From contig JAFGPY010000322.1 of NCBI GenBank assembly GCA_016935955.1, forward strand, positions 1 to 17,168: a stretch of DNA of 17,168 nucleotides, in the 5' to 3' direction. The translations under genes were made by a program, and so were the position numbers. Positions 1 through 16,057 of the stretch are shown piece after piece. Position 1 is the stretch's first letter. The number at the start of each line of letters is the position of its first letter. The DNA is from Planctomycetota bacterium. Lineage in GTDB: Bacteria; Planctomycetota; Phycisphaerae; FEN-1346; JAACEH01. The notes under the pieces were generated by a model. The model had not been told where the DNA came from and searched no databases. It saw nothing but the letters and a program-made list of their open reading frames with translations.

Positions 1-1431
1 CACGCAAAGAGTTGCGTCGTCCACAGTGCGGTTCAAACTCACCGCTTCGATGATCTCCCGCCTGCGGGCTTTGTTTGAACCGCGCCACTCTTCGGCGGCC
101 TTCTGGCTGAAGTCGAACGTCCTGAGCACACGCTCGGCCTCCGCCGGATCGAAGGTGCCTGCGGCCGCCGCCGACTCTCGGACTTCCGCTTCGAGGCACT
201 TGAGCTCCGCCGACTTCGTCTGGAACACCGCCTCGTCAATGATGCCGCTCAGGTAGCCGTTCAACAACCGGTCCTGCTGGCCCTTGAGATCGGCCCGCCG
301 CTTCTCGACGGCCTGCATCTGGCGGCGATGGTATTCGGTCACGTCGGCGAAGGCCTTGACGAGGGCCTCGCGGAACCAGTCGCGGAGTTCCTCCGTCGGC
401 AGCCGCAGCTTGTCGAGCTCGGCCAGCACGTCTTCTTCCAGCTTCTCGACCCGCCAGCGAACCGGTGGATGGTCCGGGCCGCGATGGTTGTTGGCACAGC
501 GATAGTACGTGTGCTCCCGCACGTTGCCTCCCCGAAGTCGCCGCCGGATGCGCTCACCCGTCAGGGACTGGCCGCAGTAGGCGCAGCGGAAGAGGCCGCC
601 CGCGTAGGAGTGGTTGGCCTGGCGATAGCGGCGGTTCTTGCCCGCGAGGATGGTCTGGCACTGCTCGAACGTCTCGCGGGAGACCAGGTGCTGGTGCTTG
701 CCGGGATAGCTCTTGCCGCGCCAGACGATCTCGCCGATGTAGAAGCGGTTGTTGAGAATGCGCGACAGGATCGAGCGATAGAACCGCGGCGTGGCCCGCT
801 GGTAGGTGTGGCCTTCGGCGGCTAACTGCGCAGCCAAGGCTTTGAAGGTCGTGTCCCCCTTGGCGTAAAGCTCGAAGATGCGGGCCACGGCCCGGGCCTG
901 AACGGGATCGGGCTGGATGGGCTGCTCACGGTCGCCGGTCACGTTGCGGTAGCCGAAGGGGGCGGCTGCTGGGAGCCAGCCTTGCCTCACCTTCTCGTCC
1001 ATGCCTTTGACGACCTCGCTCTGGAGGTTGTCGGAGTAGTATTGGGCGACGGCGGCCATGACGTTGAATGACAGTGCCCCCGCCGCACCTGGCCCGAACT
1101 GGTTGTCGACGAAGGCCAGCTTCACACCGCAGGCATCTTCGAGTTCCTGCAGCCGCACGGCGTCCCGCATGTTGCGGCAGACGCGATCCAGCTTGTGGCT
1201 GAGGATAGCCTTGATGCCCTCACGCCGGGCATTCCTGCGAACCCACTTGAGCATCTCGTTGAAGGCCTGCCGCTCGGCCCCGCGCTTGGCCGACTCGGCC
1301 ACGGCGAACTCGCGGACCACCTTCCAGCCCTCGCGGGTGGCCCGGTCGCGGGTGACCCGGAGCTGCGCGTCGATGCTGTAGCCTTCCCTCTGTTCCCGCG
1401 ACGAGACCCGTGCCCAGATGATCACGTTCAT
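1..1431 (-). CDS. Large serine recombinase (site-specific integrase), C-terminus cut by window edge
   Basis: This enzyme would integrate or excise element 1 by serine-mediated strand exchange. 477 codons are open to the window edge with no stop, so about 40 C-terminal residues are missing compared with the paralogue at 10758-12314. The N-terminal resolvase domain (about 1-145) starts MNVIIWARVSSREQ, with R8 and the presumed nucleophile S10. The recombinase domain covers about 155-265. A zinc ribbon follows, with C283, C286 and C312, then a coiled-coil-like, charged segment. By eye the first 64 residues are 75% identical to the second recombinase (48/64). The start ATG lies just behind a GGAG and at the expected end of the small upstream gene, which suggests translational coupling. 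The family is clear; target site and activity are not visible here. Confidence 0.93.
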   Translation of the reverse strand, partial: MNVIIWARVSSREQREGYSIDAQLRVTRDRATREGWKVVREFAVAESAKRGAERQAFNEMLKWVRRNARREGIKAILSHKLDRVCRNMRDAVRLQELEDACGVKLAFVDNQFGPGAAGALSFNVMAAVAQYYSDNLQSEVVKGMDEKVRQGWLPAAAPFGYRNVTGDREQPIQPDPVQARAVARIFELYAKGDTTFKALAAQLAAEGHTYQRATPRFYRSILSRILNNRFYIGEIVWRGKSYPGKHQHLVSRETFEQCQTILAGKNRRYRQANHSYAGGLFRCAYCGQSLTGERIRRRLRGGNVREHTYYRCANNHRGPDHPPVRWRVEKLEEDVLAELDKLRLPTEELRDWFREALVKAFADVTEYHRRQMQAVEKRRADLKGQQDRLLNGYLSGIIDEAVFQTKSAELKCLEAEVRESAAAAGTFDPAEAERVLRTFDFSQKAAEEWRGSNKARRREIIEAVSLNRTVDDATLCV

Positions 1432-1726
1432 GACTTGGCTTTCTCCACTGGGGCCCCAGAAGCACTTCCGCCAGCCGCTTGACGTTCACCAGAATCTCGA
1501 TGGCCTCGCTCTCGGAGATGTCCCGCCGGTATTCTTTCGACCAGACCTGGCGGGTTCTCTGGAGCAACTCCTCATCGATCCAAGCGACGTCGAGTGGCCT
1601 GTTCGGGACCGCCCCGAACTGGTGACATGGGGCCACCTTCTGCGGCCCGAGTCCAGTCAAATCCGGGGCGGTCTCCGCAGCGTCTTGATCGGCGTCATTC
1701 ACATTATGGGGGGCAAAGGCAACCAT
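1220..1726 (-). CDS. Recombinase-associated small protein, probably frameshifted near its 3' end
   Basis: I do not recognise a named family. Residues about 44-90 match the small protein encoded at 12311-12601: a W-I/S-x-E-L segment, then ISESEAIEILVNVKRLAEVLL against ISEDEAVEILMNVKRMGELLL. Both copies sit directly upstream of a serine recombinase. In this copy the open frame runs on for 70 codons over the recombinase gene in another frame. Adding one base in the GGGGCCCC tract at 1450-1457 would end the protein in LLGAPVEKAKS with a TGA overlapping the recombinase ATG, exactly the arrangement of the other copy. The real gene is therefore probably about 1428-1726, with an indel or a sequencing error. 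GGAGAG precedes the ATG at 1726. A role as partner or directionality factor of the recombinase is only inferred. Confidence 0.6.
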   Translation of the reverse strand: MVAFAPHNVNDADQDAAETAPDLTGLGPQKVAPCHQFGAVPNRPLDVAWIDEELLQRTRQVWSKEYRRDISESEAIEILVNVKRLAEVLLGPQWRKPSHERDHLGTGLVAGTEGRLQHRRAAPGHPRPGHPRGLEGGPRVRRGRVGQARGRAAGLQRDAQVGSQECPA

Positions 1727-1782
1727 GCGTGTCGCTCTCCATTCTCTTCAGACGTGGGCCAACGTGGTGCGACGTGGCGCGT

Positions 1783-1803
1783 CACTGGCGGAATCTGCCA
1801 GTG
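1783..1803. repeat. 21-bp palindrome, copy A
   Basis: Interrupted palindrome with arms CACTGGC and GCCAGTG around GGAATCT. It lies between the zinc-finger gene and the small recombinase-associated gene. It has the same length and a similar pattern (ACTG..CGGA.T....CAGT) to the palindromes at 3445-3465 and 4107-4127; 15 of 21 bases match the latter. It could be an operator, a dispersed palindromic repeat, or a weak transcription stop. Confidence 0.6.
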
Positions 1804-1826
1804 AGCCCACCGGGCAGTCGCCCATG

Positions 1827-2066
1827 TTATCGCAACGCGATAGTATGCCGGTGGCCGACGCTGATCGACCGGTCCGCTCCGCGCCGCTCCCGTAGTCGCC
1901 GGCGGTATGCCCGCTGGCGGCATGCGGCACGGCAATAGCGGGCCTCCGGCCGACCGGCATAGAACGCTCGGCCGCAGACAAGACACGTGCGACGGTAGCA
2001 GCCGCGACAATCGCCACAGCGTCGCCACGTGGCCGCCAGGATGGCCTCGCGCGTCAGAATGAACAT
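1827..2066 (-). CDS. Small zinc-finger protein
   Basis: A 79-residue basic protein. Residues about 15-45 hold paired cysteines: CGDCRGC, then CLVCGRAFYAGRPEARYC, then the C of CRQRAYRRR. This C-x2-C ... C-x3-C spacing with the RYC-x3-CRQRAYRR ending is a common treble-clef or zinc-ribbon pattern in small mobile-element proteins. It suggests nucleic-acid binding, but the exact family is not identified. The start at 2066 is chosen because GGAGGG lies 9 nt upstream; a longer reading frame reaches back to 2204 but has no such site and runs into the repeat block. It lies between the candidate origin and the recombinase module, all on the same strand, so it may belong to the replication or regulation functions of element 1. 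Confidence 0.65.
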   Translation of the reverse strand: MFILTREAILAATWRRCGDCRGCYRRTCLVCGRAFYAGRPEARYCRAACRQRAYRRRLRERRGADRSISVGHRHTIALR

Positions 2067-2199
2067 GGTGGCCACCCTCCGGCCGGTGGGCGTTACGGCA
2101 GAATCTACACCCTCTGCAACCAACTCTCTCATGGACTGCGACTGGTTCCCGTGGCCTCGGAAAGAGCCCCGTTTGGCGAAGGAACCGTGCCGCCAGAGC

Positions 2200-2413
2200 G
2201 TCACTTATCTAATGCACGCAATGTGTCACGTTTGCCCCGTCACGCTGTCACGTTCGCCGTCACGCATCGAGCGTGACGGTGCCATAAGTCCTTCTGCCGC
2301 AAGCCGTTGAGTTTGTCACGCATGTTCGTCACGCTGTCACATCACACATCCCGCCCCGTCACGTCACGTTTTGCCCCCCTAAGAGGGGGGCAAACGTGAC
2401 GGGTGAACGTGAC
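2200..2413. repeat. GTCACG repeat block, candidate replication origin or operator array of element 1
   Basis: A gene-free stretch (2067-2415) is dense in the hexamer GTCACG. Forward copies start at 2225, 2239, 2247, 2259, 2315, 2328, 2358 and 2363. Reverse copies (CGTGAC) start at 2272, 2395 and 2408. Near copies are at 2200 and 2336. The pair GTCACGCTGTCAC occurs twice (2239 and 2328). An exact inverted repeat, CCGTCACGC/GCGTGACGG, sits at 2257-2265/2271-2279. Short clustered repeats plus inverted repeats next to a RepA-type ATPase gene resemble iteron origins of plasmids and phages. Function is inferred, and an operator array for a regulator encoded on the element is the main alternative. 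Confidence 0.55.
2363..2400. repeat. Long G6/C6 hairpin at the end of the repA-like gene
   Basis: Left arm GTCACGTTTTGCCCCCCT (2363-2380), loop AAG, right arm AGGGGGGCAAACGTGAC (2384-2400). All 17 bases of the right arm pair, and one extra T bulges from the left arm. It lies 15 bp past the stop of the repA-like gene. There is no T tract on either strand, so it is not a typical intrinsic terminator. Both arms carry the GTCACG hexamer of the surrounding repeat block. A replication-origin cruciform or single-strand initiation hairpin, or a dimeric protein site, would fit. Confidence 0.6.
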
Positions 2414-2415
2414 GG

Positions 2416-4053
2416 TCAGGGGGTTGGAAGGCTTATTATCTCCCCGCTGACGATCACCTCGCCCTGCCTGGCCAGAGATTGGAGTACGCGGTGTTGGTTC
2501 TGACGAACCATCCCCGCCGCCTCGCACTTCTCTCGCCAGGTGTCGATGGCCGCGGCTCCATCGTCGCTGCCCGCGACGAGTTGCCGCGCGACGGCCAGGC
2601 CGACCTCCTGCCACTTGCCGCGCGCGCCGGGCTTGGCGGCCACGACCTTCGAGACGATCGCGCCGGTGTCGGCGTCGAGCACTTCGATGGCGGCCGAAGT
2701 GACCGGGTTGCCGTACTCGTCCACGAGGCCGGGCAGTTCCACCGTGGCCAGCTTCATGGCCAGTGGGGGTGGCATCTCGGCCTCCTTCATCTTCGTGGCC
2801 GTCAAAAGCAACCCGCCGTTGTTGCTGAGGCGGTACTCGGCGTCGAGGGCGGCCTTGAGGGCGATGGCCCCGCGGGCGCGGGTCTTGTCGGCGTGGCCGG
2901 TGTGGTGCACCACGAGCACGGTGCAACCCCATCGCTGCCGGATGGCGTCGCAGGCCGAGACGAAGCGCGACATGTCCTGGGTGCTGTTCTCATCGCCGCC
3001 GCCGAAGCAGCGGGCCAATGTGTCGATCACCACCAGCACAGGCTCCTTGGCCAGCGATGCCGCCTCGACGGACTGCACCAGCTCGAGCAGTTGGGCGGCG
3101 TCAGGCAGGGCCAGCGCGGGGGCGATGAAGAGCGGGACGCCGTCCATGCTCACGCCGTTGAACTCCTGCCAGGCCCGCACCCGCCGCCCGAAGCCCTGGC
3201 GGCCTTCCCCGGCGACATAGACCACCGGGCCGGCACGAACGCTGTGGCCGCGCCACGGCGTACCCGTGGCCACCCGGCAGGCCCAGTCGATGCCCAGGAA
3301 ACTCTTGCCGCCGGCGGGATCGCCGAAGAGGAGAGCCAGGGTGTCGCGCTCCAGCACGCCGCGGAGCAGCCAGTCGGGCGGGCGCATCTCGATCATGTCG
3401 GCGCGGACGACGCGCAGACGGGGCGACGATGCGTCCGGCGGGCATACTGCGGAATTTCCGCAGTACGGCTCGGCTCCGGTCCCGCTCGGAGGTTCATCAA
3501 GGGGCACCCTCTCTGCCGCCTCGGCCAGGTAGGGCTCGGTCTCCTCGATCTCGATGGGCTTGGGCGGCGGCTTGATCCTGTCCGGGTGGATCGGGCCAGC
3601 GGCCCACTGCTCGATGGCCGTGAGCCAGGCGGGCAGGATGAGCCGCTCGTACATCCTCGAACTGGCCGTCTCGTCCCACGACTGGAGCACGTAGGCCATG
3701 GCGTGATGACGGCCCCGCAGCCGCGCCGCGAGCACCTCATGGCCCGGGCGGAAGCCCCGGTGGTGCGTCTTGGGTCCCTCGCCGCCGGGGGCATAGACGC
3801 TGTAGCGCTCGCGCAGCCGCTGGCGCAGTTTCCACGCAGCTTCGGCCTCTTCCTCCTGGAGGCGAATCTGATCATCGTGGCCCGGCCAATCCCGCACCAC
3901 GCGCCGGGCCTCTTCAACGAAGCCCCTGCGGTAGGCCTGCTCCTTCGCGGGCGTGGCATTGGGCCAGCCCGGCCCGTCATCGTAGTCGCGGAGGAGCGCC
4001 GGCTCGGCGGCCGGGGCAACGGCTTCCGTGATGCCACTGGGGAGGGCAACCAT
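2416..4053 (-). CDS. RepA-like AAA ATPase (hexameric replicative helicase family)
   Basis: 545 residues. The C-terminal half matches RepA/AAA_25-type RecA-fold ATPases: Walker A GDPAGGKS at 244-251, a conserved VVYVAGEG strand at 277-284, Walker B VLVVID at 339-344 and the VVHHTGH motif at 381-387. The N-terminal 190 residues are charged, helical and unrecognised. A Pro/Gly/Ser-rich linker (about 185-212) joins the halves. In phages and plasmids such proteins unwind or load at the origin, and the repeat block just downstream fits that role. The ATG at 4053 is preferred because GGAG lies 8 nt upstream; reading further back overlaps the capsid gene in another frame. It is separated from the capsid gene by 146 bp, so it may have its own promoter. 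Seven linker codons are an exact palindrome. Confidence 0.88.
   Translation of the reverse strand: MVALPSGITEAVAPAAEPALLRDYDDGPGWPNATPAKEQAYRRGFVEEARRVVRDWPGHDDQIRLQEEEAEAAWKLRQRLRERYSVYAPGGEGPKTHHRGFRPGHEVLAARLRGRHHAMAYVLQSWDETASSRMYERLILPAWLTAIEQWAAGPIHPDRIKPPPKPIEIEETEPYLAEAAERVPLDEPPSGTGAEPYCGNSAVCPPDASSPRLRVVRADMIEMRPPDWLLRGVLERDTLALLFGDPAGGKSFLGIDWACRVATGTPWRGHSVRAGPVVYVAGEGRQGFGRRVRAWQEFNGVSMDGVPLFIAPALALPDAAQLLELVQSVEAASLAKEPVLVVIDTLARCFGGGDENSTQDMSRFVSACDAIRQRWGCTVLVVHHTGHADKTRARGAIALKAALDAEYRLSNNGGLLLTATKMKEAEMPPPLAMKLATVELPGLVDEYGNPVTSAAIEVLDADTGAIVSKVVAAKPGARGKWQEVGLAVARQLVAGSDDGAAAIDTWREKCEAAGMVRQNQHRVLQSLARQGEVIVSGEIISLPTP
3445..3465. repeat. 21-bp perfect palindrome inside the repA-like gene, copy B
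   Basis: Arms TACTGCGGAA and TTCCGCAGTA around a single central T, ten perfect pairs. It occupies exactly seven codons of the linker in the RepA-like protein (residues 197-203, YCGNSAV). It is related to the palindromes at 1783-1803 and 4107-4127. Its placement in a low-complexity linker is what an inserted mobile palindrome would look like. Confidence 0.7.
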
Positions 4054-4106
4054 GTGACTCTCCAAAGCATGAAGCGGTTGAGTGGAAAGAAGGGGAGGCG
4101 GAGCCA

Positions 4107-4127
4107 TACTGCCGGATTCCGACAGTA
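4107..4127. repeat. 21-bp palindrome upstream of the repA-like gene, copy C
   Basis: Arms TACTGCCGG and CCGACAGTA around ATT, with one mismatched pair. It lies in the 146-bp gap between the capsid stop and the repA-like start, 54 bp upstream of the repA-like ATG, where an operator could act. 16 of 21 bases match copy B at 3445-3465. Confidence 0.65.
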
Positions 4128-4199
4128 TGACTCGCCTCGGATAAAGGAGCGGAGGGACGCGGGGCCCGTCAAACCCGCGCGCCCCTCCCGTGGAAGAGC

Positions 4200-6089
4200 C
4201 TATGCCTGGCCCTTGCTCATCACCGCCGCCCGCGGATCGCAGAGGGCCGCACCGTAGTCGAAAAACACCCGCCACGACACCGCGAGGCGCTCCACCGTCT
4301 GCTCCAGGCCGAAGAACTCGGTCGTCGGCGTCTGGATGCCGTTGAGGAAGGCCACCACCAGCGCGGCGAAGGCCGGGTTGGTGAACAAGAACCACTCCTT
4401 GCCGCTGGCCGCCGCGCCGAACTTGGCGGTGTTCGACAAGCGCGGCTCGATCTCCAGTGTCACCGCCTGCCGCAGCGAGTTGCCGGTGGGCTGCCCGACG
4501 GTCTGCTGGATGTACTCGCTCTGCAAGAGCGCCCGGGCCGTCGATTCCAGGCCCGGCCCCACCAGCAGCACTGCCGGCCGCAGGTCGAGGTCGTTGTGCT
4601 CGTCGTCGCGCTGCGAGCGCATGAGCAGAATCGCCGCCGCCAGGGCGTCGAACCCGAGAGCGCTGTCGGCCCCGTCCTGGTAGTTGCCGTTGCCCTCGCT
4701 GAAGAAGCCCGAGGCGTTCGCCAGCAGGACGGCGTAGACCAGGTCGTTCAGGCTCCGCATCGCGGCCCGCCCGTGGGCCGAAGCGGCGTCCTGGAAGAGG
4801 CCCATATCATCATTGATGATGTCCCGGCGGTCCACCGAGAGCAGTTTCCCATAAGTATCCACGCTGAACGTCGTCGTGGACTCGGCCACCGAGCCATGCT
4901 TCAACTCGCCGCCTGGGGCCACCGGCTGGAGCGCCCCGGTGAAGCTGGGCCGGATCGCCGTGTTGGTCTTGAAGTCCGAGACGCTACGCACCGCGCAGAA
5001 CGAACGCCACGTCGCGGGCGTCTCGTTGTAGCTGTCCAGCAGCAGCTTGTTGGCCACGGCACCCAAGGCCGTCGGCAGCGACATCGTCGAGAGGGCCGCC
5101 CGCACCATGTCCAGCCGCCCGTGCGGCACGTCGCGGTGCTCCGACAAGAGCGCCGCCCGGCAGATGTCCATCAGGTGCGCCGCCCCGAGCCGCTCGCCCG
5201 CCTCCATCGCCGGGGCGCCGAGCACCTTCTCGCCGAGGCCGCCCTTGCCCATCCTCATCAAAATGGCCGCCTCCAGCGAGGCCGAGGTCGGCACGTGCTG
5301 ATCGGGGATGTAGGCCGCAGGCACCTTCGGCCGGGAGGCCCGTAGCACCTCCAGCTCCACCCGGTTGGTGTCCCACTGCTCGGCCACCGCCCGCTCCTCG
5401 ATCTCGGGGAACCGGCCCGCACAGATTTTCCGGATGGCCTCCACCCGCCCGGCCTCCAGGGTTGCCGTCTCGGTCTCCCGCGTCTGCTGCTCCACAACGT
5501 CCTGCTCCACCGTCGCCGTCGTCACCATTACTCCCTCCGTTCTCTTCTGTGCCGCAATCGACACGCTGGTGCCGCCATCGCAGCCCAGTGCCACAATCGA
5601 GACCTCACGCAACCGCCCGCGGGACACCAGCGTGAAGCCGTTCGCCAGCGCCCGGATCGTCCTGCCGTTGACAGCCACCACCTCGCCCGCCGCCACCCGC
5701 CGCCGCTCGTGGACTTCAAGGCCGACGCTGGCCTCCCACGCGAAGCCGTTGCGGGCCGACTCCACGATCTCCCTGGCCGCCGCCGTCGTGGCCGAGATGG
5801 TGCCCGCCACGGTCAGCCTGCCGCCTGCCACCTCGGCCCGCCCGTGCCCCACCACACCCCGGCGGGTGCTGTCGTGGTCACTCAGAAGTGCCACGCTCCC
5901 GGTGACATCTAGGCCCGCCAGGTCGATCACGATGTCGCCCCAGCCTGGCACGGTCATCACCCCGCCGCCGTAGGCGACGATCTGCACCGCCGGGAGCTTG
6001 TCCTTGCTCCCGGCGGCGCTGAGGGCGACGTCGGCCACCAGGTTCAGCGTCTCCGGCGGGGCCGCCACTGCCGTCGTCTCGATGGTCAT
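4200..6089 (-). CDS. Prohead protease/major capsid protein fusion
   Basis: 629 residues. The N-terminal part (about 1-185) looks like a phage prohead protease: SDHDS with H72, then GHGRAEVAGGRLTVAGTI and FAWEASVGLEV with S121 as candidate nucleophile. Residues about 188-270 are charged and could be scaffold. Residues about 270-629 resemble a Mu gpT or HK97-fold major capsid protein, for example YNETPATWRSFCAVRSVSDF and EWFLFTNPAFAALVVAFLNG. In phages the protease processes the scaffold during head maturation, and fused versions are known. AGGAGG sits 7 nt before the ATG, which overlaps the previous stop as ATGA. A second strong ribosome site at 5526-5538 could start a shorter product at residue 188. 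No portal, terminase or tail gene is next to it. An encapsulin is unlikely because of the protease. Confidence 0.85.
   Translation of the reverse strand: MTIETTAVAAPPETLNLVADVALSAAGSKDKLPAVQIVAYGGGVMTVPGWGDIVIDLAGLDVTGSVALLSDHDSTRRGVVGHGRAEVAGGRLTVAGTISATTAAAREIVESARNGFAWEASVGLEVHERRRVAAGEVVAVNGRTIRALANGFTLVSRGRLREVSIVALGCDGGTSVSIAAQKRTEGVMVTTATVEQDVVEQQTRETETATLEAGRVEAIRKICAGRFPEIEERAVAEQWDTNRVELEVLRASRPKVPAAYIPDQHVPTSASLEAAILMRMGKGGLGEKVLGAPAMEAGERLGAAHLMDICRAALLSEHRDVPHGRLDMVRAALSTMSLPTALGAVANKLLLDSYNETPATWRSFCAVRSVSDFKTNTAIRPSFTGALQPVAPGGELKHGSVAESTTTFSVDTYGKLLSVDRRDIINDDMGLFQDAASAHGRAAMRSLNDLVYAVLLANASGFFSEGNGNYQDGADSALGFDALAAAILLMRSQRDDEHNDLDLRPAVLLVGPGLESTARALLQSEYIQQTVGQPTGNSLRQAVTLEIEPRLSNTAKFGAAASGKEWFLFTNPAFAALVVAFLNGIQTPTTEFFGLEQTVERLAVSWRVFFDYGAALCDPRAAVMSKGQA
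5526..5538 (-). promoter_or_regulatory. Internal ribosome binding site and start inside the protease-capsid gene
   Basis: Reading the minus strand, GGAGGGAGTA immediately precedes an in-frame ATG at codon 188. This is at least as good as the site of the full gene. It falls at the join between the protease domain and the scaffold/capsid part, so a separate 442-residue scaffold-capsid polypeptide could be made from the same frame. Lambda genes C and Nu3 use the same nested-start logic. Use of this site is inferred. Confidence 0.5.
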
Positions 6090-6646
6090 TCCGACGCCTC
6101 CTGCGGCCCGAGCTTCGTGCCCATGGGGAAGAACCGGATGCGGGCGTAGTCCGCGCACTCCGGTGACGGCTCAATCACCGTCACCAGGCCCGGCACGTCG
6201 AAGCTCAGGGCGAAGCCCAGCCCGTACTTCACGCAGGCCACCCGGTGGGCCTTCACCGCCTGGCCGAACCGCAGGTTTGAAACCCAACAGAAATGCGTCC
6301 AACTGTCCCAGTGCTCGTTCTCGTAGAGCCACTCGGCCGCCGCGTCGATGTCGCCGCGATCCCAGAGGTGAATTCCCTTCGAGCCGGCCATCAGCTTCGG
6401 GCTGACGATGCCCTCTTCCACCAGCTTCACCAGCAGTTCGCCGTCGCACGTCAGGCCCCGCAGCTTCAGTTCCGCCACCGCGCCCGCGGTGTGCTTAGGA
6501 TACACCAGCGAGCACGACGCCAGGGCGTCGCCGCCGGTGGGCACGTCGATGTTCGGAATGACCCCCATCAGTTCCTCGAAGTCCTCCCGAAGGAAGTAGT
6601 GCCCCCGCGCCTTCCGTTCCGCCACCTTGTTCCCGTTCTCCGTCAT
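6086..6646 (-). CDS. Unknown protein with winged-helix/MerR-like middle segment
   Basis: 186 residues, family not recognised. Residues about 57-107 (AELKLRGLTCDGELLVKLVEEGIVSP, then IHLWDRGDIDAAAEWLYEN) have the layout of an excisionase or MerR-type winged helix: a short helix, a variable wing with a basic residue, then an aspartate-led helix. The rest is mixed alpha/beta with several Cys and Trp. The start ATG overlaps the stop of the sigma-like gene (TAATG) with AAGGAG 9 nt upstream, and its own stop overlaps the capsid start (ATGA). All three are therefore very probably co-translated. A regulator or a small virion/assembly protein would both fit. The DNA-binding reading rests on pattern only. 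Confidence 0.7.
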   Translation of the reverse strand: MTENGNKVAERKARGHYFLREDFEELMGVIPNIDVPTGGDALASCSLVYPKHTAGAVAELKLRGLTCDGELLVKLVEEGIVSPKLMAGSKGIHLWDRGDIDAAAEWLYENEHWDSWTHFCWVSNLRFGQAVKAHRVACVKYGLGFALSFDVPGLVTVIEPSPECADYARIRFFPMGTKLGPQEASE

Positions 6647-7206
6647 TACTGCAGCTCCTTTCGCATGCCCCTGAGTTTCCGCTGAACCGTCGATCGGCTC
6701 AGGCCCGTTGTCTCCACTGTCTCCTCGGCCGTCATCTCCGCCGCCCGGCACTCCGCAATCTTCCGCTCGTCCTCCGGCAGCCCCTCCAGGTACTCCCGCA
6801 CCACCATGTTCTCCAGCGGACTCGTTCGTACCTCCGGCCCCACGCTGATCCGCCGGTAGCCCGGCTCGGCCCACTCGGCGTCGTACCGCTCGTGCGAGTC
6901 GGCCGTGCTGCTCTGGCCCGTCGGCCCCGCGGGTGGCCCCGTGTCGCTCAACGTCTGCCAGCGGCCGAGCTCCCGCACCAGCTTGTTGAGCTCGTTCTTC
7001 GCCCGGCTGCCCATCCGGGCGTGAGCCAGGCCCTCGTCGCCCGTGTCCTTCCACACCTGCCAGCCCGCCAGGAGCAGCGACTGGGCAATGTCGTCCCGCC
7101 GGAAATCGTCCTTCCCCTTGTCCACCTTCAAGAGCACCTTCCGCGCCACCGCCTTGGCGTACTTCTCCAGCCTTTCGACAACCTGCGCCTCCGTCTCTTC
7201 CACCAT
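6646..7206 (-). CDS. Sigma-70-family-like protein, first gene of the capsid operon
   Basis: 186 residues. The C-terminus (about 128-186) looks like sigma region 4: SPLENMVVREYLEGLPEDERKIAECRAAE followed by a helix-turn-helix, MTAEETVETTGLSRSTVQRKLRGMRKEL. The N-terminal part (about 15-80) resembles region 2 only loosely. Such proteins on mobile elements usually steer host RNA polymerase to the element's own promoters or act as HTH regulators. The start at 7206 is chosen over an upstream ATG at 7254 because AAGGAG lies 9 nt before it. It leads a tightly coupled operon (HTH-like protein, capsid). The other element has a similar small sigma-like gene (12598-13098) heading its recombinase operon, but the two proteins are not close in sequence. 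Confidence 0.72.
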   Translation of the reverse strand: MVEETEAQVVERLEKYAKAVARKVLLKVDKGKDDFRRDDIAQSLLLAGWQVWKDTGDEGLAHARMGSRAKNELNKLVRELGRWQTLSDTGPPAGPTGQSSTADSHERYDAEWAEPGYRRISVGPEVRTSPLENMVVREYLEGLPEDERKIAECRAAEMTAEETVETTGLSRSTVQRKLRGMRKELQ

Positions 7207-7236
7207 GCACACCCTCTCCTTTCCCACGAGGTGATT

Positions 7237-7254
7237 CCCTATTCCCTTATCCAC
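7237..7254. repeat. Direct repeat, copy 1 (18 bp)
   Basis: CCCTATTCCCTTATCCAC, 31 bp upstream of the sigma-like start. It is repeated with one mismatch and one extra base at 7384-7402. The two copies bracket the non-coding stretch between the minus-strand element operon and the plus-strand transglutaminase gene. They may be regulator sites or an element border. Confidence 0.5.
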
Positions 7255-7402: not shown

Positions 7403-7454
7403 CCGCCGCGGCTGTTTCCCGCCAGGAATCTGGAAGAGCACGGGAAGAATGTCA

Positions 7455-7515: not shown

Positions 7516-8793
7516 GTGGGCCGAAAGAAGCGAAATCGCTCGACTGCCGCCGCGTCGCCGGAGAAACGTCCCTCCTGGCTCCGCCGCCACGCCTTCTGGA
7601 TCGGTATCGCTGCCTTCGCCGTGGCTGCCATCACCGCCGCCCATTATCTGCCCGGCGGTGGCACCGGACAGACGCCCACGGCGACAGTGCCGACGACGCC
7701 CGCCCCCGAACCCATCCCGCCCACCGCCCAGAAGGCCTTCACCCTCGACAAGCTTCTTGCCATGCCGGTGGAGCAACTGGCCGACGTGGACATCGCCGAG
7801 ATGAATCTCCTCTGCGCCAAGGGCCTTCCTGGTGCCGAGGACCTCGACGTCGCACAGGCCATGGCCACGCTCGATCAGTGGGCCACGCGCGTCAAGTACG
7901 AAACCGAGCGGCACCTCTACCGGGTCACCGATCCTCGCTATGCCGAGCACTACCGCCACAGCGAAGCTTACCTGCGGGCCGAGATGCTGGTGCAGGTGCT
8001 CTGTGAAGACCTCGGCGTCAAGTATGACCTGAGCGCCAAGGATACGTTCGCCTACAATGACTCGCGAGTCGCGTTCATCCATGGCATGATTCCAACCAAG
8101 GGCCAGACCATTGCCGAGACGCCTGGCGGCACCTGCGCCTCGATGCCCGTGCTTTACGTCGCGGTGGGACGCCGCCTCGGCTACCCGCTCAAACTCGTGA
8201 CAACCCGAGGCCATGTCTTCGTCCGCTGGGACGGCAAGGACCACCTCAACCCTGCCTGGCGTGAGCGGATCAACATGGAAGGCACCCACGGGTTCTCATC
8301 CTACCCGGATGACTACTACAAGACCTGGCCGGCGAAGGTGACCGAGGCCGAAATCAAGATCAACGGCTACTTCGTCTCGCTCACCCCATCGGAAGAGCTG
8401 GCCGAGTTCCTGGCCTCGCGCGGCCACTGCGGTACGGATAACGGTCAGCTTGCCTTCGCCGCCCGCTGCTTCGAGAACGCCTACCGCTACGACACCCAGC
8501 GGCGGTGCTACCGCGAGTGGTTCCTTGACGCTGCCAGGAAGTCTGGCTACCGCCCTGTGACCCCCGCTCTGGCCAGTCTGCTCCAGCAGCGGATGAGGCC
8601 CGGAAGCGACCCCGAGTTCATCATCGGCCAGCAGCAGGCCGCCGCCCGGCGAGAGTGGCTGCGCAGCCAAGGCGCTGGCACAGGGGCTCCGGCATTGCCG
8701 AACGGCATGCCCGTCGGCGGCCTGCAGCCGCCGCAACCCGGCATTCCGCAGCCCTACCAGCCGCCAACACCGGGGCAGCCGCCTGGACAATAG
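7516..8793 (+). CDS. Membrane-anchored transglutaminase-like (SirB1-type) protein
   Basis: 425 residues with a basic N-terminus, one membrane segment (about 25-43, FWIGIAAFAVAAITAA), a Pro/Thr-rich stalk (50-70) and a Pro/Gln-rich tail (about 385-425). The core has the transglutaminase-like pattern: GGTCASMPVLYVAVGRRLGYPL with C207, then GHVFVRWDG with H233 and D239, a plausible Cys-His-Asp triad. SirB1-like members are widespread and mostly uncharacterised; a protease or cross-linking role on the periplasmic face is possible. I chose GTG 7516, which has GGGGG about 9 nt upstream and a positively charged start before the membrane helix. An in-frame GTG at 7477 would add 13 residues but overlaps the possible promoter. 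The gene is probably chromosomal and heads a plus-strand group with the RHS-like gene. Confidence 0.82.
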   Translation: MGRKKRNRSTAAASPEKRPSWLRRHAFWIGIAAFAVAAITAAHYLPGGGTGQTPTATVPTTPAPEPIPPTAQKAFTLDKLLAMPVEQLADVDIAEMNLLCAKGLPGAEDLDVAQAMATLDQWATRVKYETERHLYRVTDPRYAEHYRHSEAYLRAEMLVQVLCEDLGVKYDLSAKDTFAYNDSRVAFIHGMIPTKGQTIAETPGGTCASMPVLYVAVGRRLGYPLKLVTTRGHVFVRWDGKDHLNPAWRERINMEGTHGFSSYPDDYYKTWPAKVTEAEIKINGYFVSLTPSEELAEFLASRGHCGTDNGQLAFAARCFENAYRYDTQRRCYREWFLDAARKSGYRPVTPALASLLQQRMRPGSDPEFIIGQQQAAARREWLRSQGAGTGAPALPNGMPVGGLQPPQPGIPQPYQPPTPGQPPGQ

Positions 8794-8806
8794 TGAAGAT
8801 GCAAGA

Positions 8807-8858: not shown

Positions 8859-9860
8859 ATGAAGACCTCCCGTCTGGCCGCCGTCGTGGTTGCCGTCGCC
8901 ACAGTCGCTCTCTTCGCCTCCAACGCCTCGGCCATGTACAACCCATCGCTCGGCTGCTGGATGCAGCGCGACCCGGGGCCGGGAGGGCCGGTCGCCACTA
9001 CTCCGCGCGTGGGCGGCGGCCCGGTTGCCGGCGGAGCGTTTCTGCCGCGCGATCCGGCGGGCAACGGGCAGTATGCGGACGGGATGAACCTCTATCAGTA
9101 CGGACGCAGCAATCCCGTGAATGGCCTTGACCCTGACGGCTGCGTTGTGGTCGTCATTAGTGGACTTGCTGAGCACCACAATGAGGGAAGGCCACTGGCA
9201 GATAAGATCGCGTCCGGCATCATTGGCGAAATCGGCGCCGGCGGCTTGGATGGAGACCGGGTTGTCCAAGTCATGATGGTCATGGGTGGATGGGGTGGGC
9301 CTGTTGGAGAGGCAACCCTCCGCAAGGAGTTCGAGTCATTCGTCAAGAGGAAGAAAGCCAACCCATGTAGTCTGGAGCAGTTCGTGGCGGTCGGACACAG
9401 TGACGGCGCGACCGCAATCCTCCATCTGCTGCAGGACGGCACCTTCAACAAGAAGCCCACCCCGGCCTATCTTGGCTTCATCGACCTGGTTCGCGTCAGC
9501 TACCTGGCGGGTGGAAACACTGACGCAAGTACGTCCGAGACCATAGCCAAGCCAGACGGCACGAAGGTTGAGAACTTCCGGCAGACATATGGCGAGCCCT
9601 GGGGATGGAGAGGCCGGGTTGTTAGCGGAGCGGATGTCAACATCGACGTTAACAGGGACTGGGGCTTCTATGCTGTCGAGAATGGCCGCGCCACCAACAA
9701 ACAGGTCTTCTTGAATCACTTCACGATCTTCACTGAGCCCGGCATTCAGCGTGAGATTGCCAAACGGCCGGCGTGGGCGTATGCAGATCGGGTCATGGCA
9801 GAGGTAAGGGCACACCCAGACTACAAGCCCTGGCATAGGAAGGCCGGCGAGTACTGGTAA
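8859..9860 (+). CDS. Secreted RHS-core protein with alpha/beta-hydrolase (lipase-like) domain
   Basis: 333 residues. A signal peptide (1-25) ends SNASA, so the mature protein starts MYNPSLGCWMQRDPG, the opening of the RHS-associated core. The core continues with YADGMNLYQYGRSNPVNGLDPDG (73-94), after an inserted Gly/Pro-rich stretch. The remaining 240 residues resemble a lipase: GHSDG nucleophile elbow with S181, then D209 and H287 as possible triad members. Full RHS proteins exceed 1000 residues and deliver such C-terminal toxins; here only the core tip and the hydrolase remain, behind a signal of their own. AAAGGGGA precedes the ATG. A lipoprotein gene follows after 10 nt. It could be a secreted lipase, a detached RHS toxin, or an orphan RHS tail. 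Enzyme activity is inferred from motif only. Confidence 0.78.
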   Translation: MKTSRLAAVVVAVATVALFASNASAMYNPSLGCWMQRDPGPGGPVATTPRVGGGPVAGGAFLPRDPAGNGQYADGMNLYQYGRSNPVNGLDPDGCVVVVISGLAEHHNEGRPLADKIASGIIGEIGAGGLDGDRVVQVMMVMGGWGGPVGEATLRKEFESFVKRKKANPCSLEQFVAVGHSDGATAILHLLQDGTFNKKPTPAYLGFIDLVRVSYLAGGNTDASTSETIAKPDGTKVENFRQTYGEPWGWRGRVVSGADVNIDVNRDWGFYAVENGRATNKQVFLNHFTIFTEPGIQREIAKRPAWAYADRVMAEVRAHPDYKPWHRKAGEYW

Positions 9861-9870: not shown

Positions 9871-10602
9871 ATGCAGAAACGATTGTCGCCAGCTTGCGAC
9901 GCGCGGCTAGTTGTCGTTGTCAGCTTGGCAGTGGTCTGCCTGCTTGCATGTGGCTTCGCCGGGTGCGCCCCAGCGGGCTCTGCGATTGCCACGATCGGCG
10001 TCGCCGAGGTGAGTTCTCCGAGAGCGACACTGGTTGGTTTTGACGACGCGATTCGGCGGCGGGATTTTGACCGGGCGGTCCAGTTCATCGTGCCGGAGAG
10101 ACGCCGAACGTATCGGGAGTACTATGTGCATACCGGACGGTATCTGGCAGCCTTGGACGAATTGAAGAACAGCATTCGCGAGAAGATCGGCCCGGAGGCA
10201 AGCAGACAGTGTGAACTGGCGATTGCGGCTACGGTAATCCTGAGTCCGCTCGAGGCGGCGCGGATCAATGGTGAGGTGTCATGGGAGAAGGTCAGCGTCA
10301 CGCTGAAAGATGACTCTACGGCAATGGTCTTCATAGGCGCAGCAGATCCCCAAGCGACCCTTCGTCGTATTCAGGGCAGTTGGTTTCTGGGGTCCTTCTG
10401 CGGTGGTGCGCCTGACGCCGGCAGCATGGGTGCCCTTAAGAGGGTGGTGACAGCCCTGGTGCGGATTGTACGTGACGCCGATGCCGAGGTGCGTTCGGGG
10501 CGCGTTACCGCTGAGAGCTTCCCGGCGTTCATGCGTGAGCGGTTTGAGTGGACTGTCACCTCCCCCGAGCAGTCGCAGGCCCAACCGGCCCCAAGAGACT
10601 GA
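9871..10602 (+). CDS. Lipoprotein, candidate immunity partner of the RHS hydrolase
   Basis: 243 residues. A hydrophobic N-terminal segment (13-31, LVVVVSLAVVCLLACGFAGC) contains C27 (LLAC) and C32 (FAGC), either of which could be the lipidated cysteine. The rest is soluble. Residues 49-75 (PRATLVGFDDAIRRRDFDRAVQFIVPE) have the look of an NTF2/DUF4878-like N-terminal region. No named family is recognised. GGGAG lies 6 nt before the ATG and the gap to the hydrolase gene is only 10 nt, so the pair is co-transcribed. Immunity proteins to periplasm-acting lipase toxins are often lipoproteins, which fits, but a plain envelope lipoprotein is equally possible from sequence alone. The following 155 bp hold no gene that I can see, only short scattered inverted repeats. 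Confidence 0.75.
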   Translation: MQKRLSPACDARLVVVVSLAVVCLLACGFAGCAPAGSAIATIGVAEVSSPRATLVGFDDAIRRRDFDRAVQFIVPERRRTYREYYVHTGRYLAALDELKNSIREKIGPEASRQCELAIAATVILSPLEAARINGEVSWEKVSVTLKDDSTAMVFIGAADPQATLRRIQGSWFLGSFCGGAPDAGSMGALKRVVTALVRIVRDADAEVRSGRVTAESFPAFMRERFEWTVTSPEQSQAQPAPRD

Positions 10603-10757: not shown

Positions 10758-12314
10758 TTACCCCGGTCGGCTGTCACCACCACATGCCTCAATGAACTCG
10801 ACGACCGCCGGTTCAAACTGCGGCGCGGATACCCGACTTTTCTTAAGAAAAGGCCGTTCGACGAGATAGTCGAACGGCCTTCTTTTTTCTAGGACGAGAG
10901 TTACGTCGCTTACCTTACGGTTTGAACTGACCACCTCCAGCAGCTCCCGTTTACCCGCCGAGTTCGAACCGCGCCACCGTTCGACCAGATTCTGGCTGAA
11001 TTCGAACGTCGCCAGTGCCGCCTCGCCGCAGGCGGGATCAAACTTGTCGGCCTCGTCGAGCTGGCGTTCTACCTCTTCGAGCTGAGTCTTCAGGTCGAGC
11101 GACTTGATCTGGAAGGCCTGCTCTTCGATGGAGCCGGCCAGGTAGCCGTTGAGCAGCCGGTCCTGCATGTTGACCAACTCGGTGCGGCGCTTGGCCAGGA
11201 TTCGCCTCTGCTCTGCCTGGACGGTGCCGACTTCGCTGAAGGTGGCCTCCAGCGCGTTGCGGAACCACCGGGCGTGGCGGTCCGGCAATCTCACCGTGTC
11301 CAGTTCCTTCTCGATGGCGTCGTTGATCTCCACCCAGCGCCAGCGGACCTTCGGATGCCCTTCGTCGGGGTGGTTGTTGCCGCACTTGTAGTAGGCGTGC
11401 TCGTTGCAGCCGCCATCTTTGAGCTTGCGACGGATCAGTTCGCCCGTCATGGCGAAGTTGCAGCAGGCGCAGCGGAGGATACCGCCGGACAAGACGATAT
11501 CCGGGTTGCCCGTCCGCCGGTTGCGGCCGTGAAGGATGTCCTGGCAGATGCTGAACATCTTGCGGTCGATCAGGAGGCGGTAGCGGCCCTCGAAGGTCTG
11601 GCCATTGCGCTGCAGTTCGCCGATGTAAAAACGGTTGTTGAGGATGTACGACAATGCCGTGCGATGGAATCGCGGCTGGCTGGGCTGGTAGATGTGGCCC
11701 TCGGCGGCGAGCTTGTCGGCCAGGCTCTTGAAGGTGAACCGCCCGCTGGCGTAGAGCTCGAAGATGCGGATGACCGTCTTGGACTTCACCGGGTGCGGCA
11801 CGACCGGCTCATTGCGGTCGTCCACGTTCATGTACCCATACGGCGCGAGTCCCGTTGGCCAGCCCTGCCGCACCTTCTCGTCCATGCCTTTGATGACCTC
11901 GGTGCGGAGGTTGTCCGAGTAGTACTGCGCCACCGCCGCCATCACGTTGAACGACAGCGCGCCCGCCGCGCCTGGGCCGAACTGGTTCTCGACGAAGGTC
12001 AGCTGCACGCCGCAGGTGTCTTCCAGTTCCTGCAGCCGGACCGCGTCTCGCATGTTGCGGCAGACGCGGTCGAGCTTGTGGGCGAAGATGGCGTTGATCT
12101 TCTCGCGTTTGGCGTTGGACTTGACCCACTTGAACATCTGGTTGAACGCGATGCGATCGGCACCGCGCTTGGCCGACTCGGCAACGGCGAACTCGCGGAT
12201 GATCGTCCAGCCCGCCTTCGCCGCCTTGTCGCGCATCGCACGGATCTGCGCGTCGATGGAATAGCCCTCGCGCTGTTCGCGGGACGACACTCGTGCCCAG
12301 GCCACTACGTTCAT
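10758..12314 (-). CDS. Large serine recombinase (integrase) of element 2
   Basis: 518 residues, complete. The resolvase domain (1-145) starts MNVVAWARVSSREQREGYSIDAQ with S10 as presumed nucleophile. The recombinase domain covers about 155-265. The zinc ribbon reads LRCACCNFAMTGE ... YYKCGNNH, followed by a helical region and a C-terminal tail. It is paralogous to the recombinase at the left window edge with hardly any gaps, so both elements share an integration machinery. GGGAGGGAGG lies directly upstream and the ATG overlaps the preceding stop (ATGA). The last 50 codons contain a perfect 13-bp hairpin (10850-10881) that also works as a terminator for the opposite strand. The gene lies at the left end of element 2, so an attachment site is expected between about 10603 and 10850, but I could not define it. 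Confidence 0.94.
   Translation of the reverse strand: MNVVAWARVSSREQREGYSIDAQIRAMRDKAAKAGWTIIREFAVAESAKRGADRIAFNQMFKWVKSNAKREKINAIFAHKLDRVCRNMRDAVRLQELEDTCGVQLTFVENQFGPGAAGALSFNVMAAVAQYYSDNLRTEVIKGMDEKVRQGWPTGLAPYGYMNVDDRNEPVVPHPVKSKTVIRIFELYASGRFTFKSLADKLAAEGHIYQPSQPRFHRTALSYILNNRFYIGELQRNGQTFEGRYRLLIDRKMFSICQDILHGRNRRTGNPDIVLSGGILRCACCNFAMTGELIRRKLKDGGCNEHAYYKCGNNHPDEGHPKVRWRWVEINDAIEKELDTVRLPDRHARWFRNALEATFSEVGTVQAEQRRILAKRRTELVNMQDRLLNGYLAGSIEEQAFQIKSLDLKTQLEEVERQLDEADKFDPACGEAALATFEFSQNLVERWRGSNSAGKRELLEVVSSNRKVSDVTLVLEKRRPFDYLVERPFLKKSRVSAPQFEPAVVEFIEACGGDSRPG
10850..10888 (+). terminator. Intrinsic terminator for the plus-strand genes, embedded in the recombinase 3' end
   Basis: Stem AAGGCCGTTCGAC (10850-10862) and GTCGAACGGCCTT (10869-10881), 13 perfect pairs, loop GAGATA, then CTTTTTT (10882-10888). 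It is ideally placed to stop transcripts from the hydrolase-lipoprotein pair. The same bases encode part of the recombinase tail (EKRRPFDYLVERPFLKK). Read the other way, the stem is followed by TTCTTAAG, a weaker signal. The adjacent CTTTTCTTAAGAAAAG (10837-10852) is also a palindrome. Confidence 0.8.
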
Positions 12315-12601
12315 TCGTCGCCTCCCTCCCTTCGCAATCTCAGCAGCAACTCGCCCATTCGTTTCACGTTCATGAGAATCTCCACGGCCTCGTCTTCGCT
12401 GATCGGTCGGCCATACGACTCCGACCAGAGCTCGATGGTCTCGGCCATCAGTTCGTCCGAAATCCATGCCAGCGACAGCGGCCGCTGGCGTCGTTCAAGG
12501 CCGGGGACAGCTTGCTCATCCGGGGCACTTAATCCAGTCGATTCAGGGGGAATCTTGGCCGGCGGATCGAGCGTGCATGTGCATGATTCGCGGTCATTCA
12601 T
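12311..12601 (-). CDS. Recombinase-associated small protein, intact copy
   Basis: 96 residues, family unknown to me. The N-terminal half (1-45) is Pro-rich and Cys-containing. The conserved half (about 40-87) reads RPLSLAWISDELMAETIELW, then ISEDEAVEILMNVKRMGELLL, and is shared with the protein at 1220-1726. The ATG overlaps the stop of the sigma-like gene (ATGA at 12598-12601), and its stop overlaps the recombinase start (ATGA at 12311-12314), so three proteins are translationally coupled. Pairing with a recombinase in two diverged loci argues for a functional link, for example a directionality factor or accessory subunit, but nothing in the sequence proves it. Confidence 0.75.
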   Translation of the reverse strand: MNDRESCTCTLDPPAKIPPESTGLSAPDEQAVPGLERRQRPLSLAWISDELMAETIELWSESYGRPISEDEAVEILMNVKRMGELLLRLRREGGDE

Positions 12602-13098
12602 TCCTGCACCCACCCCTCCAGTCCGAGCTCCTCGAAGCGCTGGCGCAGGCGGCGAATGATGCGGTCGACGGTGTGCCAGCCGCAGCCCATCCACTTGGCC
12701 ATCTGGGCGACGGACAGCCCATCGGCCAGCCCGCGACAGACCTGCTGCTCACGCGGCGACAGGTCGGCGACGGCGCTGGCGACGTCCACCACACGCGGGT
12801 CGACTTCCTCGGTACTGAACTCGTTGGCCTGCAGGCCGAAGCGCTCGACATGCATGCGATAGCGGGCGGCGGCGCGTTTCATCTTCCGCAGGCGGTTGTC
12901 GATGACCGTGGTCAGCGCCGTGCGCTCGGTCGCCCCGTTGGCGTGGTCGGGGTCGTACTCGAACTCGAGCACGACCAGCACCGCTTCTTGCAGTGCGTCG
13001 GGAATCTCATGCGGCCTGAATCCGCAGCGCTTGGCGCGATGGATGATGAGGTTGACCTTCCACTTCTCGATGATCCCGTCGTAGTTCGGCATTTCCAT
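12598..13098 (-). CDS. Sigma-70-family-like protein heading the recombinase operon
   Basis: 166 residues. The N-terminus resembles sigma region 2 (LIIHRAKRCGFRPHEIPDALQEAVLVVLEFEYDP, about 18-51). The C-terminus has a region 4-like helix-turn-helix (LSPREQQVCRGLADGLSVAQMAKWMGCGWHTVDRIIRRLRQRFEELG, about 110-156). Length and layout fit an ECF-like or phage late-regulator protein. ATG 13098 is chosen with AAAGG 9 nt upstream; a second ATG two codons on is possible. It heads an operon with the small protein and the recombinase, so it may set expression of integration genes. Its leader holds a 49-bp nested hairpin next to the ribosome site. Confidence 0.75.
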   Translation of the reverse strand: MEMPNYDGIIEKWKVNLIIHRAKRCGFRPHEIPDALQEAVLVVLEFEYDPDHANGATERTALTTVIDNRLRKMKRAAARYRMHVERFGLQANEFSTEEVDPRVVDVASAVADLSPREQQVCRGLADGLSVAQMAKWMGCGWHTVDRIIRRLRQRFEELGLEGWVQE

Positions 13099-13111
13099 GT
13101 TGGCAGCCTTT

Positions 13112-13160
13112 CGTTCGTGACTTTGTTTGCTGCGCCGAGCCGGTCTCGGCGTCACGAACG
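13112..13160 (-). promoter_or_regulatory. Nested hairpin in the leader of the sigma-like gene
   Basis: Outer arms CGTTCGTGAC (13112-13121) and GTCACGAACG (13151-13160) pair perfectly. Just inside one of them is a second stem, CGCCGAG (13133-13139) with CTCGGCG (13145-13151). The inner stem overlaps the outer one by a single base. In the minus-strand transcript it would end a few bases before the AAAGG site of the gene at 13098, so it could affect translation. As DNA it could be a dimeric operator. It also contains the GTCACG hexamer seen around 2200-2413. Confidence 0.5.
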
Positions 13161-13217
13161 CAGAATCCGCCAACCATCTGGGTCACATCTCCAAGGCCGA
13201 AGATGGCGCGTGAAACA

Positions 13218-13303
13218 CATATGGGTCGCTACATGGGAGCTTCGCGCGAGCGATATGTGACCCCCTAACCCATTTTGCGACCCATATGGATTTAGGGGGT
13301 CAC
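13218..13303. promoter_or_regulatory. Interleaved inverted repeats in the divergent control region of element 2
   Basis: Two perfect 12-bp inverted repeats interlock: CATATGGGTCGC (13218-13229) with GCGACCCATATG (13277-13288), and GTGACCCCCTAA (13257-13268) with TTAGGGGGTCAC (13292-13303). Extra part-copies are present nearby (GGGTCACAT at about 13181, and the ATATGTGACCCCC run). They lie midway between the divergent recombinase operon and the exonuclease operon, the expected place for a phage-like switch or an origin. The binding protein is unknown. Confidence 0.6.
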
Positions 13304-13386
13304 GGCGAGATTTGCGGCCGAGCGGGTAATCACTCTGCGGCGGGCGATGACGACGAACGCATCGCTCCAAGCATGGGAGTCCGACA

Positions 13387-14211: not shown

Positions 14212-14221
14212 TCCATCTCTC

Positions 14222-14308
14222 GCGCCCGGGCGGGACGGCGTGCCGTGCGGCATGGATGCCATCACGGAGGAACGCGGCCGGACTCCCTACGCCCGCCCGG
14301 GCGCTTTT
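14222..14308 (+). ncRNA. Structured RNA candidate with a 13-bp closing stem
   Basis: GCGCCCGGGCGGG (14222-14234) pairs perfectly with CCCGCCCGGGCGC (14292-14304), followed by TTTT. The 57 nt between can form three more hairpins: ACGGCGTGCCGT, GGCATGGATGCC, and GGAG with CTCC (about 14266-14287). This gives a four-way, cloverleaf-like shape. It begins 10 bp after the exonuclease stop. It may be an elaborate terminator or a free RNA, and it does not match a family I can name. Confidence 0.45.
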
Positions 14309-14309
14309 C

Positions 14310-14373: not shown

Positions 14374-14378
14374 TTACT

Positions 14379-14493: not shown

Positions 14494-14548
14494 TTCGCTG
14501 GCCAGCGAGACAGAACATGAACAGACCAACAGACAACCGGAGAACGAC

Positions 14549-15585: not shown

Positions 15586-15588
15586 TCC

Positions 15589-16047: not shown

Positions 16048-16057
16048 GAGGTGCCCC

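Follow-up and report, generated by a model that had tools for sequence, protein, structure and literature searches.

What is an integrative element that carries a phage capsid gene and no other recognisable phage structural gene? This question is raised by a 17,168-nucleotide stretch of DNA from a Planctomycetota bacterium (contig JAFGPY010000322.1, positions 1 to 17,168, assembly GCA_016935955.1; this whole stretch is hereafter called the window), for which a sequence-only reading had proposed a satellite that makes its own head, a plasmid-like element that packages itself or a decayed prophage. Our analysis points, with a probability of about three in four, to an integrative phage satellite of ~11 kb that encodes its own head protein and would borrow the rest from a helper phage, its host being most likely a planctomycete. 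Of the first proposal, the satellite part is well supported by sequence comparisons, whereas the own-head part, in which the capsid would hold satellite DNA, is what we infer from them.

The left part of the window encodes, on the reverse strand, an operon composed of a sigma-70-like protein, a helix-turn-helix (HTH)-like protein and a fusion of a prohead protease with a major capsid protein; after it come a RepA-type ATPase, a block of repeats, a zinc-finger-like open reading frame (ORF), a small conserved ORF and a large serine recombinase (Table 1). An integrase is here combined with a dedicated replication gene, and the layout is the same in relatives. Apart from the small ORF, this gene order had been described by the sequence-only reading and is borne out by profile scans; the stop/start overlaps that it had noticed are real (TAATG joins the sigma-like and HTH-like genes, ATGA the HTH-like gene and the capsid fusion). 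Its claim that terminase, portal and tail genes are lacking also stands, since none of the ten left-part proteins matches such a family in Pfam and PHROG scans. The capsid fusion is recognised by PF25209 with 138 bits (cut-off 27) and by NF045541, 'prohead protease/major capsid protein fusion', with 279 bits, which is below the 525-bit cut-off of that model.

The extent first given for the element, positions 1 to 7254, proved too short. Sequence comparison places its ends slightly to the left of position 1 and at about 10.84 kb, where an attachment core of 13 bases is common to this element and to a second, tandem one that the sequence-only reading had not foreseen. The complete genome of ZRK34 contains two tandem recombinases, each followed by an identical stretch of 23 bases that includes the same 13 bases (L075, positions 5450 and 15675). 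Beyond the core, the window aligns with the mapped left end of another relative (L064:5414-5475; score 59 versus 44 for the best of 60 shuffles), which displays GGTCGGG at both element ends; eight other loci, when their flanks were compared in this way, yielded no match that clearly exceeded the single shuffle made for each. A tRNA-Pro gene lies at the recombinase 3' end in 7/7 relatives with the same recombinase type, with three anticodons, and in ZRK34 it adjoins the second of the two recombinases. Given the attachment core and the L064 flank match, the three genes at 7516-10602 lie inside the element as cargo. Homologues of the transglutaminase-like gene are found between left end and operon in five relatives (L075, L097, L149, L150 and L153), which represent three types of insertion site, and the view that the genes right of 7254 belong to the host was rejected on these grounds. 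One full-phage locus (L172) also matches the transglutaminase-like gene, which is therefore not exclusive to satellites. By coordinate subtraction, elements of ~10.2-11.2 kb with differing cargo were delimited in eight cases (L064, L075, L117, L146/L147, L149, L151, L153 and L154); the motif search for left ends succeeded in 13/74 loci, so that the ends of most elements are unmapped.

Table 1. Features of the window, with the evidence for each
Feature	Coordinates	Strand	Evidence
Large serine recombinase, cut by position 1	1..1431	-	PF00239 1e-19, PF07508 3e-16, PF13408; phrog_95 integrase 2e-77
Small conserved ORF, directly upstream of recombinase	1432..1726	-	tblastn 44-73% identity in relatives
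Zinc-finger-like ORF, 79 amino acids	1827..2066	-	phrog_6975 4e-7
Iteron-like repeat block beside RepA	2069..2415		CGTCACG x8 in 347 bases, both orientations counted
RepA-type replication ATPase (AAA_25)	2416..4053	-	PF13481 7.5e-43; phrog_2850 2e-57; phrog_906 DNA polymerase/primase 7e-50
Prohead protease/major capsid protein fusion (Mu gpT-type)	4200..6089	-	PF25209 7e-40, PF10124 2e-11, NF045541 7.7e-83, phrog_4523 6e-67
HTH-like protein	6086..6646	-	No family match; homologue before capsid in relatives
Sigma-70-like protein	6646..7206	-	TIGR02937 3.5e-9 (36.5 bits, below 42.9 cut-off); phrog_1740 7e-8
Transglutaminase-like cargo gene, divergent	7516..8793	+	PF13369 4.7e-6
RHS-core-type protein, cargo	8859..9860	+	TIGR03696 4e-8, 33.6 bits (cut-off 32.5)
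Hypothetical protein, probable lipoprotein (by eye), cargo	9871..10602	+	ORF only; no Pfam or PHROG family
Recombinase of second, tandem element	10758..12314	-	PF00239 1e-19; 59% identical to left recombinase
Attachment core, common to left (capsid) and right (tandem) elements	10832..10844		13 bases, also in ZRK34
Tandem-element genes: HTH/sigma-like, DUF3799 PDDEXK, AAA_24, DUF669, RusA, ParB-like	12598..17146		Profile scan

Whether the same gene order recurs in other planctomycetes, a question already put by the sequence-only reading, is answered by a family of at least 81 satellite-type loci (the window, 66 genome loci, 13 viral contigs and 1 further genome). Capsid relatives amounted to 1468 proteins among 7995 scored candidates, and the scans retained 80 of 236 confirmed loci in species genomes and 80 of 501 in viral contigs. 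The capsid scores are distributed in two humps; satellite-type loci were those above a cut of 560, together with seven added by name, two of which (L128 and L131) score below it. Within the viral sample, 13 capsids show 52-57% identity, after which identity falls to 39% and below. A branch with an SH-aLRT support of 100 separates satellite-type from full-phage capsids, the satellite grouping requiring two changes instead of one because the deeply divergent L129, L132 and L135 fall on the satellite side; the tree was built by a quick method from capsids of 560-760 amino acids, with full-phage rows subsampled and the near-copies L146, L155 and L156 as well as refetched loci left out, and its long branches make details unsure. 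The genomes of 59/66 genome loci are titled planctomycetes and those of 7/66 bear another or no phylum name; the non-planctomycete titles may result from mis-binning. For L068, L074, L077, L102, L121, L133 and L141, such elements or phages stand on contigs whose genome titles name Verrucomicrobiota, Chloroflexota, Acidobacteria, Leptolyngbya or Nevskiales, owing to mis-binning or transfer.

The phylum to which ZRK34 belongs was represented by 392 genomes; a capsid of either type was found in 59 of them and the satellite type in 10 (cut at about 700 bits), with G205 ambiguous. To limit the bias of capsid-based searching, the same genomes were searched with the HTH gene, which gave 10 hits, 9 of them adjoined by a capsid hit (partial in G180, of intermediate score in G064); G356 has none, and 3/10 satellite genomes (G001, G010 and G029) were missed. 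The satellite family is real and widespread; it is of a known kind, and its lineage is new as far as these searches show. Judged by titles and opening lines of abstracts, no planctomycete phage satellite was found in the literature searched, the coverage of which excluded most subscription journals and preprints.

A recognised recombinase is in view in 52/81 loci. When the 279 core ORFs besides the capsid of these 52 elements (from up to three genes before the capsid through the recombinase, cargo zones lying outside the test) were compared with 134 late proteins of eight full phages, the sole matches at E 1e-4 came from 8 recombinase ORFs, which enter a split gene for the large terminase subunit TerL (6) or for the tail tube (2). 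The replication protein varies among relatives (AAA_25, primase-AAA_25 or DUF3987). Most loci have an integrase of the serine type and 6 one of the tyrosine type, which in 4 cases lies at tmRNA; a second tyrosine type (PF00589, cluster c30) occurs in L095, L104, L105 and L110, which are outside the 52 because it was missed in the recombinase screen. A single-linkage cluster (c0) that mixed recombinases, terminases and methyltransferases was split. Across otherwise unrelated backbones, a cassette of 3.2 kb with the HTH, sigma and capsid genes is 87-90% identical in 4/4 pairs compared (L086/L124, L090/L093, L092/L086, with one additional 75-base match, and L096/L098).

The smaller features recur as well. 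The zinc-finger-like ORF, for which a Pfam scan returned zero families above cut-off, occupies an equivalent position in eight loci (L064-L067, L071, L075, L082 and L102; 46-72% identity), and matches to the small ORF precede the recombinase in L064, L068, L075, L080, L122 and L128; by eye, the tandem element has a counterpart of the latter. At the position of the repeat block, L064, L065, L071, L075 and L082 have a different repeated 7-mer in 5-10 copies. Profile scans assigned no family to the HTH-like protein; its AlphaFold model (pLDDT 72.7) is weakly winged-HTH/MerR-like, with no match under E 0.07 in the model comparison. Elements with differing cargo have used one chromosomal site, flanked by gene clusters c6 and c19, in L069, L086, L090, L094, L096, L103 and L112. 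In L150 and L152, a satellite-type capsid stands soon before phage genes (a partial second capsid and tail genes, respectively) with no recombinase in view; these are possible satellite/phage hybrids.

The link to phages, which the sequence-only reading had not foreseen, comes from the sites of insertion. A gene typical of full phages is interrupted by the element in 18/81 loci, namely TerL (7), a ParB-methyltransferase (9) or the tail tube (2). Six of them (L114, L117, L149, L151, L154 and L155) break TerL at codon 283, within Walker B (LVLID|DPQTDE), and L113 at about codon 345, ~60 codons past that site; the break points are about codon 331 in the ParB-methyltransferase (9 loci) and about codon 82 in the tail tube gene (2 loci). 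Both gene halves are in view in 7/18 (L117, L146, L147, L149, L151, L153 and L154) and one half, which ends or begins at the break, in 11; independent insertions are fewer than 18 because of the near-copies L149/L155, L146/L147 and L097/L150. Wherever the recombinase end is readable (12/12 loci), its frame runs on into the interrupted gene. Besides, L084/L156 and L145 sit between full-phage genes. Since some relatives sit in full-phage genes, the element most likely travels by parasitising full phages. Recent transfer from phage to phage is indicated most strongly by L151 and L154, with cores 99-100% identical except for a capsid patch of 76-86% and one 400-base block of 93.5%; identity drops to 77% at the TerL junction and the cargo is unrelated. 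The capsid patch (L151:7900-8700) lies inside the gene, as if capsid segments had been exchanged.

Full planctomycete phages with a group-2 capsid (such as L133-L142) are the probable helpers. They have a homologous protease-capsid fusion, 35-39% identical to that of the satellites, and share with them a gene of cluster c4 (HARE-HTH); in contrast to the satellites, they carry a GpA-type terminase, gpW, portal and tape measure. Among 129 full-phage-type viral loci, many of them incomplete, portal was recognised in 114, gpW in 82, TerL in 74 and tape measure in 46. A full-phage capsid is found in 5/10 satellite genomes versus 49/382 others (Fisher p 0.006, uncorrected for kinship and assembly quality, the 49 including weak hits and G205), and a GpA-type terminase in 22/40 satellite-bearing genomes. 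ZRK34 and H1_PLA1 bear satellite and full-phage capsids on one chromosome. Upstream of the ZRK34 element, the 19 kb searched revealed no terminase or portal, just a tape-measure-like fragment; elsewhere in ZRK34, a GpA-type terminase adjoins the full-phage capsid.

These observations can be assembled into a model. The large serine recombinase would insert and excise the element, in relatives at tRNA-Pro, and the RepA-type ATPase would act at the repeat block and replicate the element after excision. Upon helper phage activity, the HTH-like and sigma-like proteins may turn on the late operon. Because the element provides the protease-capsid fusion, whereas no terminase, portal, connector or tail gene can be recognised in it, the satellite would most likely build its own procapsid, to be filled and tailed by helper proteins. 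The helpers are probably related full phages, whose terminase, methyltransferase and tail-tube genes are interrupted by other members. The exchangeable, divergent cargo, which in relatives is often of the restriction-modification kind, would shield the host from rival phages. A more ambitious version, which we hold to be evenly balanced between true and false, is that of a new, planctomycete-wide satellite lineage with its own procapsid, some members of which lodge in the helper terminase and which trades a cassette between backbones. The Walker B break would then make helper packaging wait for satellite excision, and the HTH-sigma-capsid cassette would be traded among satellites with unrelated integrases and replication genes.

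Several points weigh against this satellite model. Its particle, its excised circle and its transfer are predicted from sequence data only. Insertion into a phage gene has not been seen for the window's own element, the left end of which lies beyond position 1. Not every satellite genome has a resident helper, since 18/40 have no GpA-type terminase and 5/10 have no full-phage capsid. No small terminase was recognised. The AlphaFold model of the capsid fusion is poor (mean pLDDT 58.8), with no structural match under E 0.001; the best rows comprise an assembly protease of a herpesvirus (E 0.06) and, in fourth place, the procapsid of phage JBD30 (E 0.39), and the fold assignment rests on profiles for this reason. 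Six of 74 capsid genes are not intact (L067, L070, L114, L116, L127 and L128), among which that of L127 may be fused rather than stopped, since the genome search gives an 820-amino-acid open frame. Finally, a retained capsid need not be the head of the satellite DNA, because the lone capsid gene that is common in phage-inducible chromosomal islands (PICIs) of Gram-negative bacteria is dispensable for transfer (PMC10111431).

The last point leads to the alternative that survives best, namely that the element is a satellite but its capsid is a weapon or decoy: subunits or protease would spoil or resize the helper procapsid, and the DNA would travel in helper or mixed heads. Besides the dispensable PICI capsids, the homology between satellite and full-phage capsids fits this view, which we consider possible, if unlikely. 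A pure poison, however, would need neither an intact protease triad nor strong selection on the whole protein. Residues H72, S121 and E162, which by analogy we take to be this triad, are kept in 67/67 satellite-type capsids (in full-phage rows, H72 in 33/38 with 5 gaps, S121 in 38/38 and E162 in 37/38). The ratio of nonsynonymous to synonymous substitutions (dN/dS) of the capsid gene is 0.025-0.19 in 15/15 pairs, many of them from one clade, and is mostly the lowest among the element genes compared, except for L094/L103, where the HTH gene is lower. Frequent inactivation of the capsid gene in relatives, which the sequence-only reading regarded as fatal to its proposal, was not seen, the gene being intact in 68/74 satellite loci not ended by a contig edge. 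The satellite capsids also form a long-separate branch, more in keeping with a shell of their own than with co-assembly.

A plasmid-like defence island riding in prophages, with a capsid that serves as an encapsulin-like compartment inside the cell or is a mere passenger, appears improbable. Its best arguments are the RepA-type ATPase with its iteron-like repeats and the restriction-modification cargo of relatives. Among ten cargo proteins picked for resembling restriction-modification or methyltransferase-type genes, 9 have a PADLOC match (8 methyltransferases and 1 Old/AriA-like ATPase); among seven more, Pfam names 3 (a SacI-type endonuclease, a DNA methylase and a trypsin-like protein), and the other four have no Pfam name, one of them being PADLOC-negative too. 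The cargo of relatives is often restriction-modification, and the 5' side forms a swappable cargo zone that the sequence-only reading had not foreseen. Phage biology is nevertheless indicated by cassette exchange and by the repeated interruption, at four sites, of genes that belong to a single phage type. To our knowledge, encapsulins are HK97-fold shells without phage partners and a maturation protease is not one of their features, whereas the capsid fusion has a protease domain with conserved H/S/E.

Very doubtful is an element that forms particles without a helper, or a gene-transfer agent, packaging itself by means of terminase and portal proteins that escaped recognition. Proteins of ~60-200 amino acids without known family do occur in the operons, but the family tracks full phages. 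In the window, no operon-strand protein other than ATPase, capsid and recombinase is longer than ~200 amino acids, which leaves no space for a normal-sized TerL or portal as a gene of its own; the self-packaging plasmid-like element of the sequence-only reading is unlikely, given that portal and terminase are lacking. A decayed prophage remnant was rejected: a single structural gene remains and six capsid genes are not intact, but the same compact gene set in 52 elements, the intact frames, the selection on the capsid (dN/dS <0.2) and the largely 99-100% identical cores in two phages bear out the earlier argument against plain decay and indicate recent movement.

On the right side of the window, the tandem element (10758-17146) has genes of the recombination type and extends beyond the window; it may be a phage with late genes past that end. 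A tRNA-Met gene is found within it at 14300-14373, and by eye a second tRNA-like stretch (~14380-14495) seems to come next. Beside the attachment core, within the 3' end of the second recombinase, a strong hairpin followed by T's was noticed at 10851-10890, with similar words in ZRK34 (by eye).

Phage satellites have been described mainly outside planctomycetes (PMC11389934, and general knowledge). If our satellite model is true, this planctomycete family with its serine recombinases would show that capsid carriage by satellites and nesting in helpers arose more than once, and a capsid without portal or terminase offers a clean case on the purpose of a lone satellite capsid. The family would also explain one source of the 'Mu-like gpT' genes and restriction-modification islands in planctomycete genomes, and ZRK34 and Roseimaritima sediminicola JC651 (complete chromosome or named strain) could permit testing.

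Among known systems, the closest are the helper-embedded PICIs (HE-PICIs) of Enterobacteria, which nest in helper late genes, with one site in the terminase cognate (Tommasini et al. 2023, PMC10111431). Shared with them are the small size and, in some loci of our family, a place inside genes of the probable helper, the terminase included, so that excision is needed to restore the gene; the first HE-PICI has its own capsid gene. In our family, 9/81 loci are in late genes (TerL 7, tail tube 2) and 9 more in the ParB-methyltransferase. HE-PICIs, however, are described as one integrase clade (11capE) with AlpA and primase, whereas the window element has a serine recombinase, AAA_25 and no AlpA family, and its relatives have serine recombinases (tyrosine in subsets), AAA_25/DUF3987 replication proteins, a Mu gpT-type fusion, planctomycete hosts and a recombinase ORF that extends, without a change of frame, into the gene broken by the element. 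A lone capsid is also found in Gram-negative PICIs, which resemble the family by their small genome, variable gene zone and capsid as a common late gene (21/29 reference PICIs; PMC10111431); here, the int-alpA-primase layout is absent, and a protease is fused to the capsid, which is partnered by an HTH(-sigma) gene. Satellites with full sets of head genes have also been described (PMC10690885, PMC11389934). Capsid-forming PICIs share an own major capsid protein and a maturation protease, to which they add portal, connectors and the two subunits of the terminase; such genes, and the tail genes of a complete prophage, are unmatched in the left part of the window and in the 52 cores. The Streptomyces satellites Mulch and Flayer (PMC10690885) likewise encode a capsid, and they have terminase, portal and scaffold with no obvious replicase, the reverse of the arrangement found here, where the capsid gene is accompanied by a dedicated replication protein.

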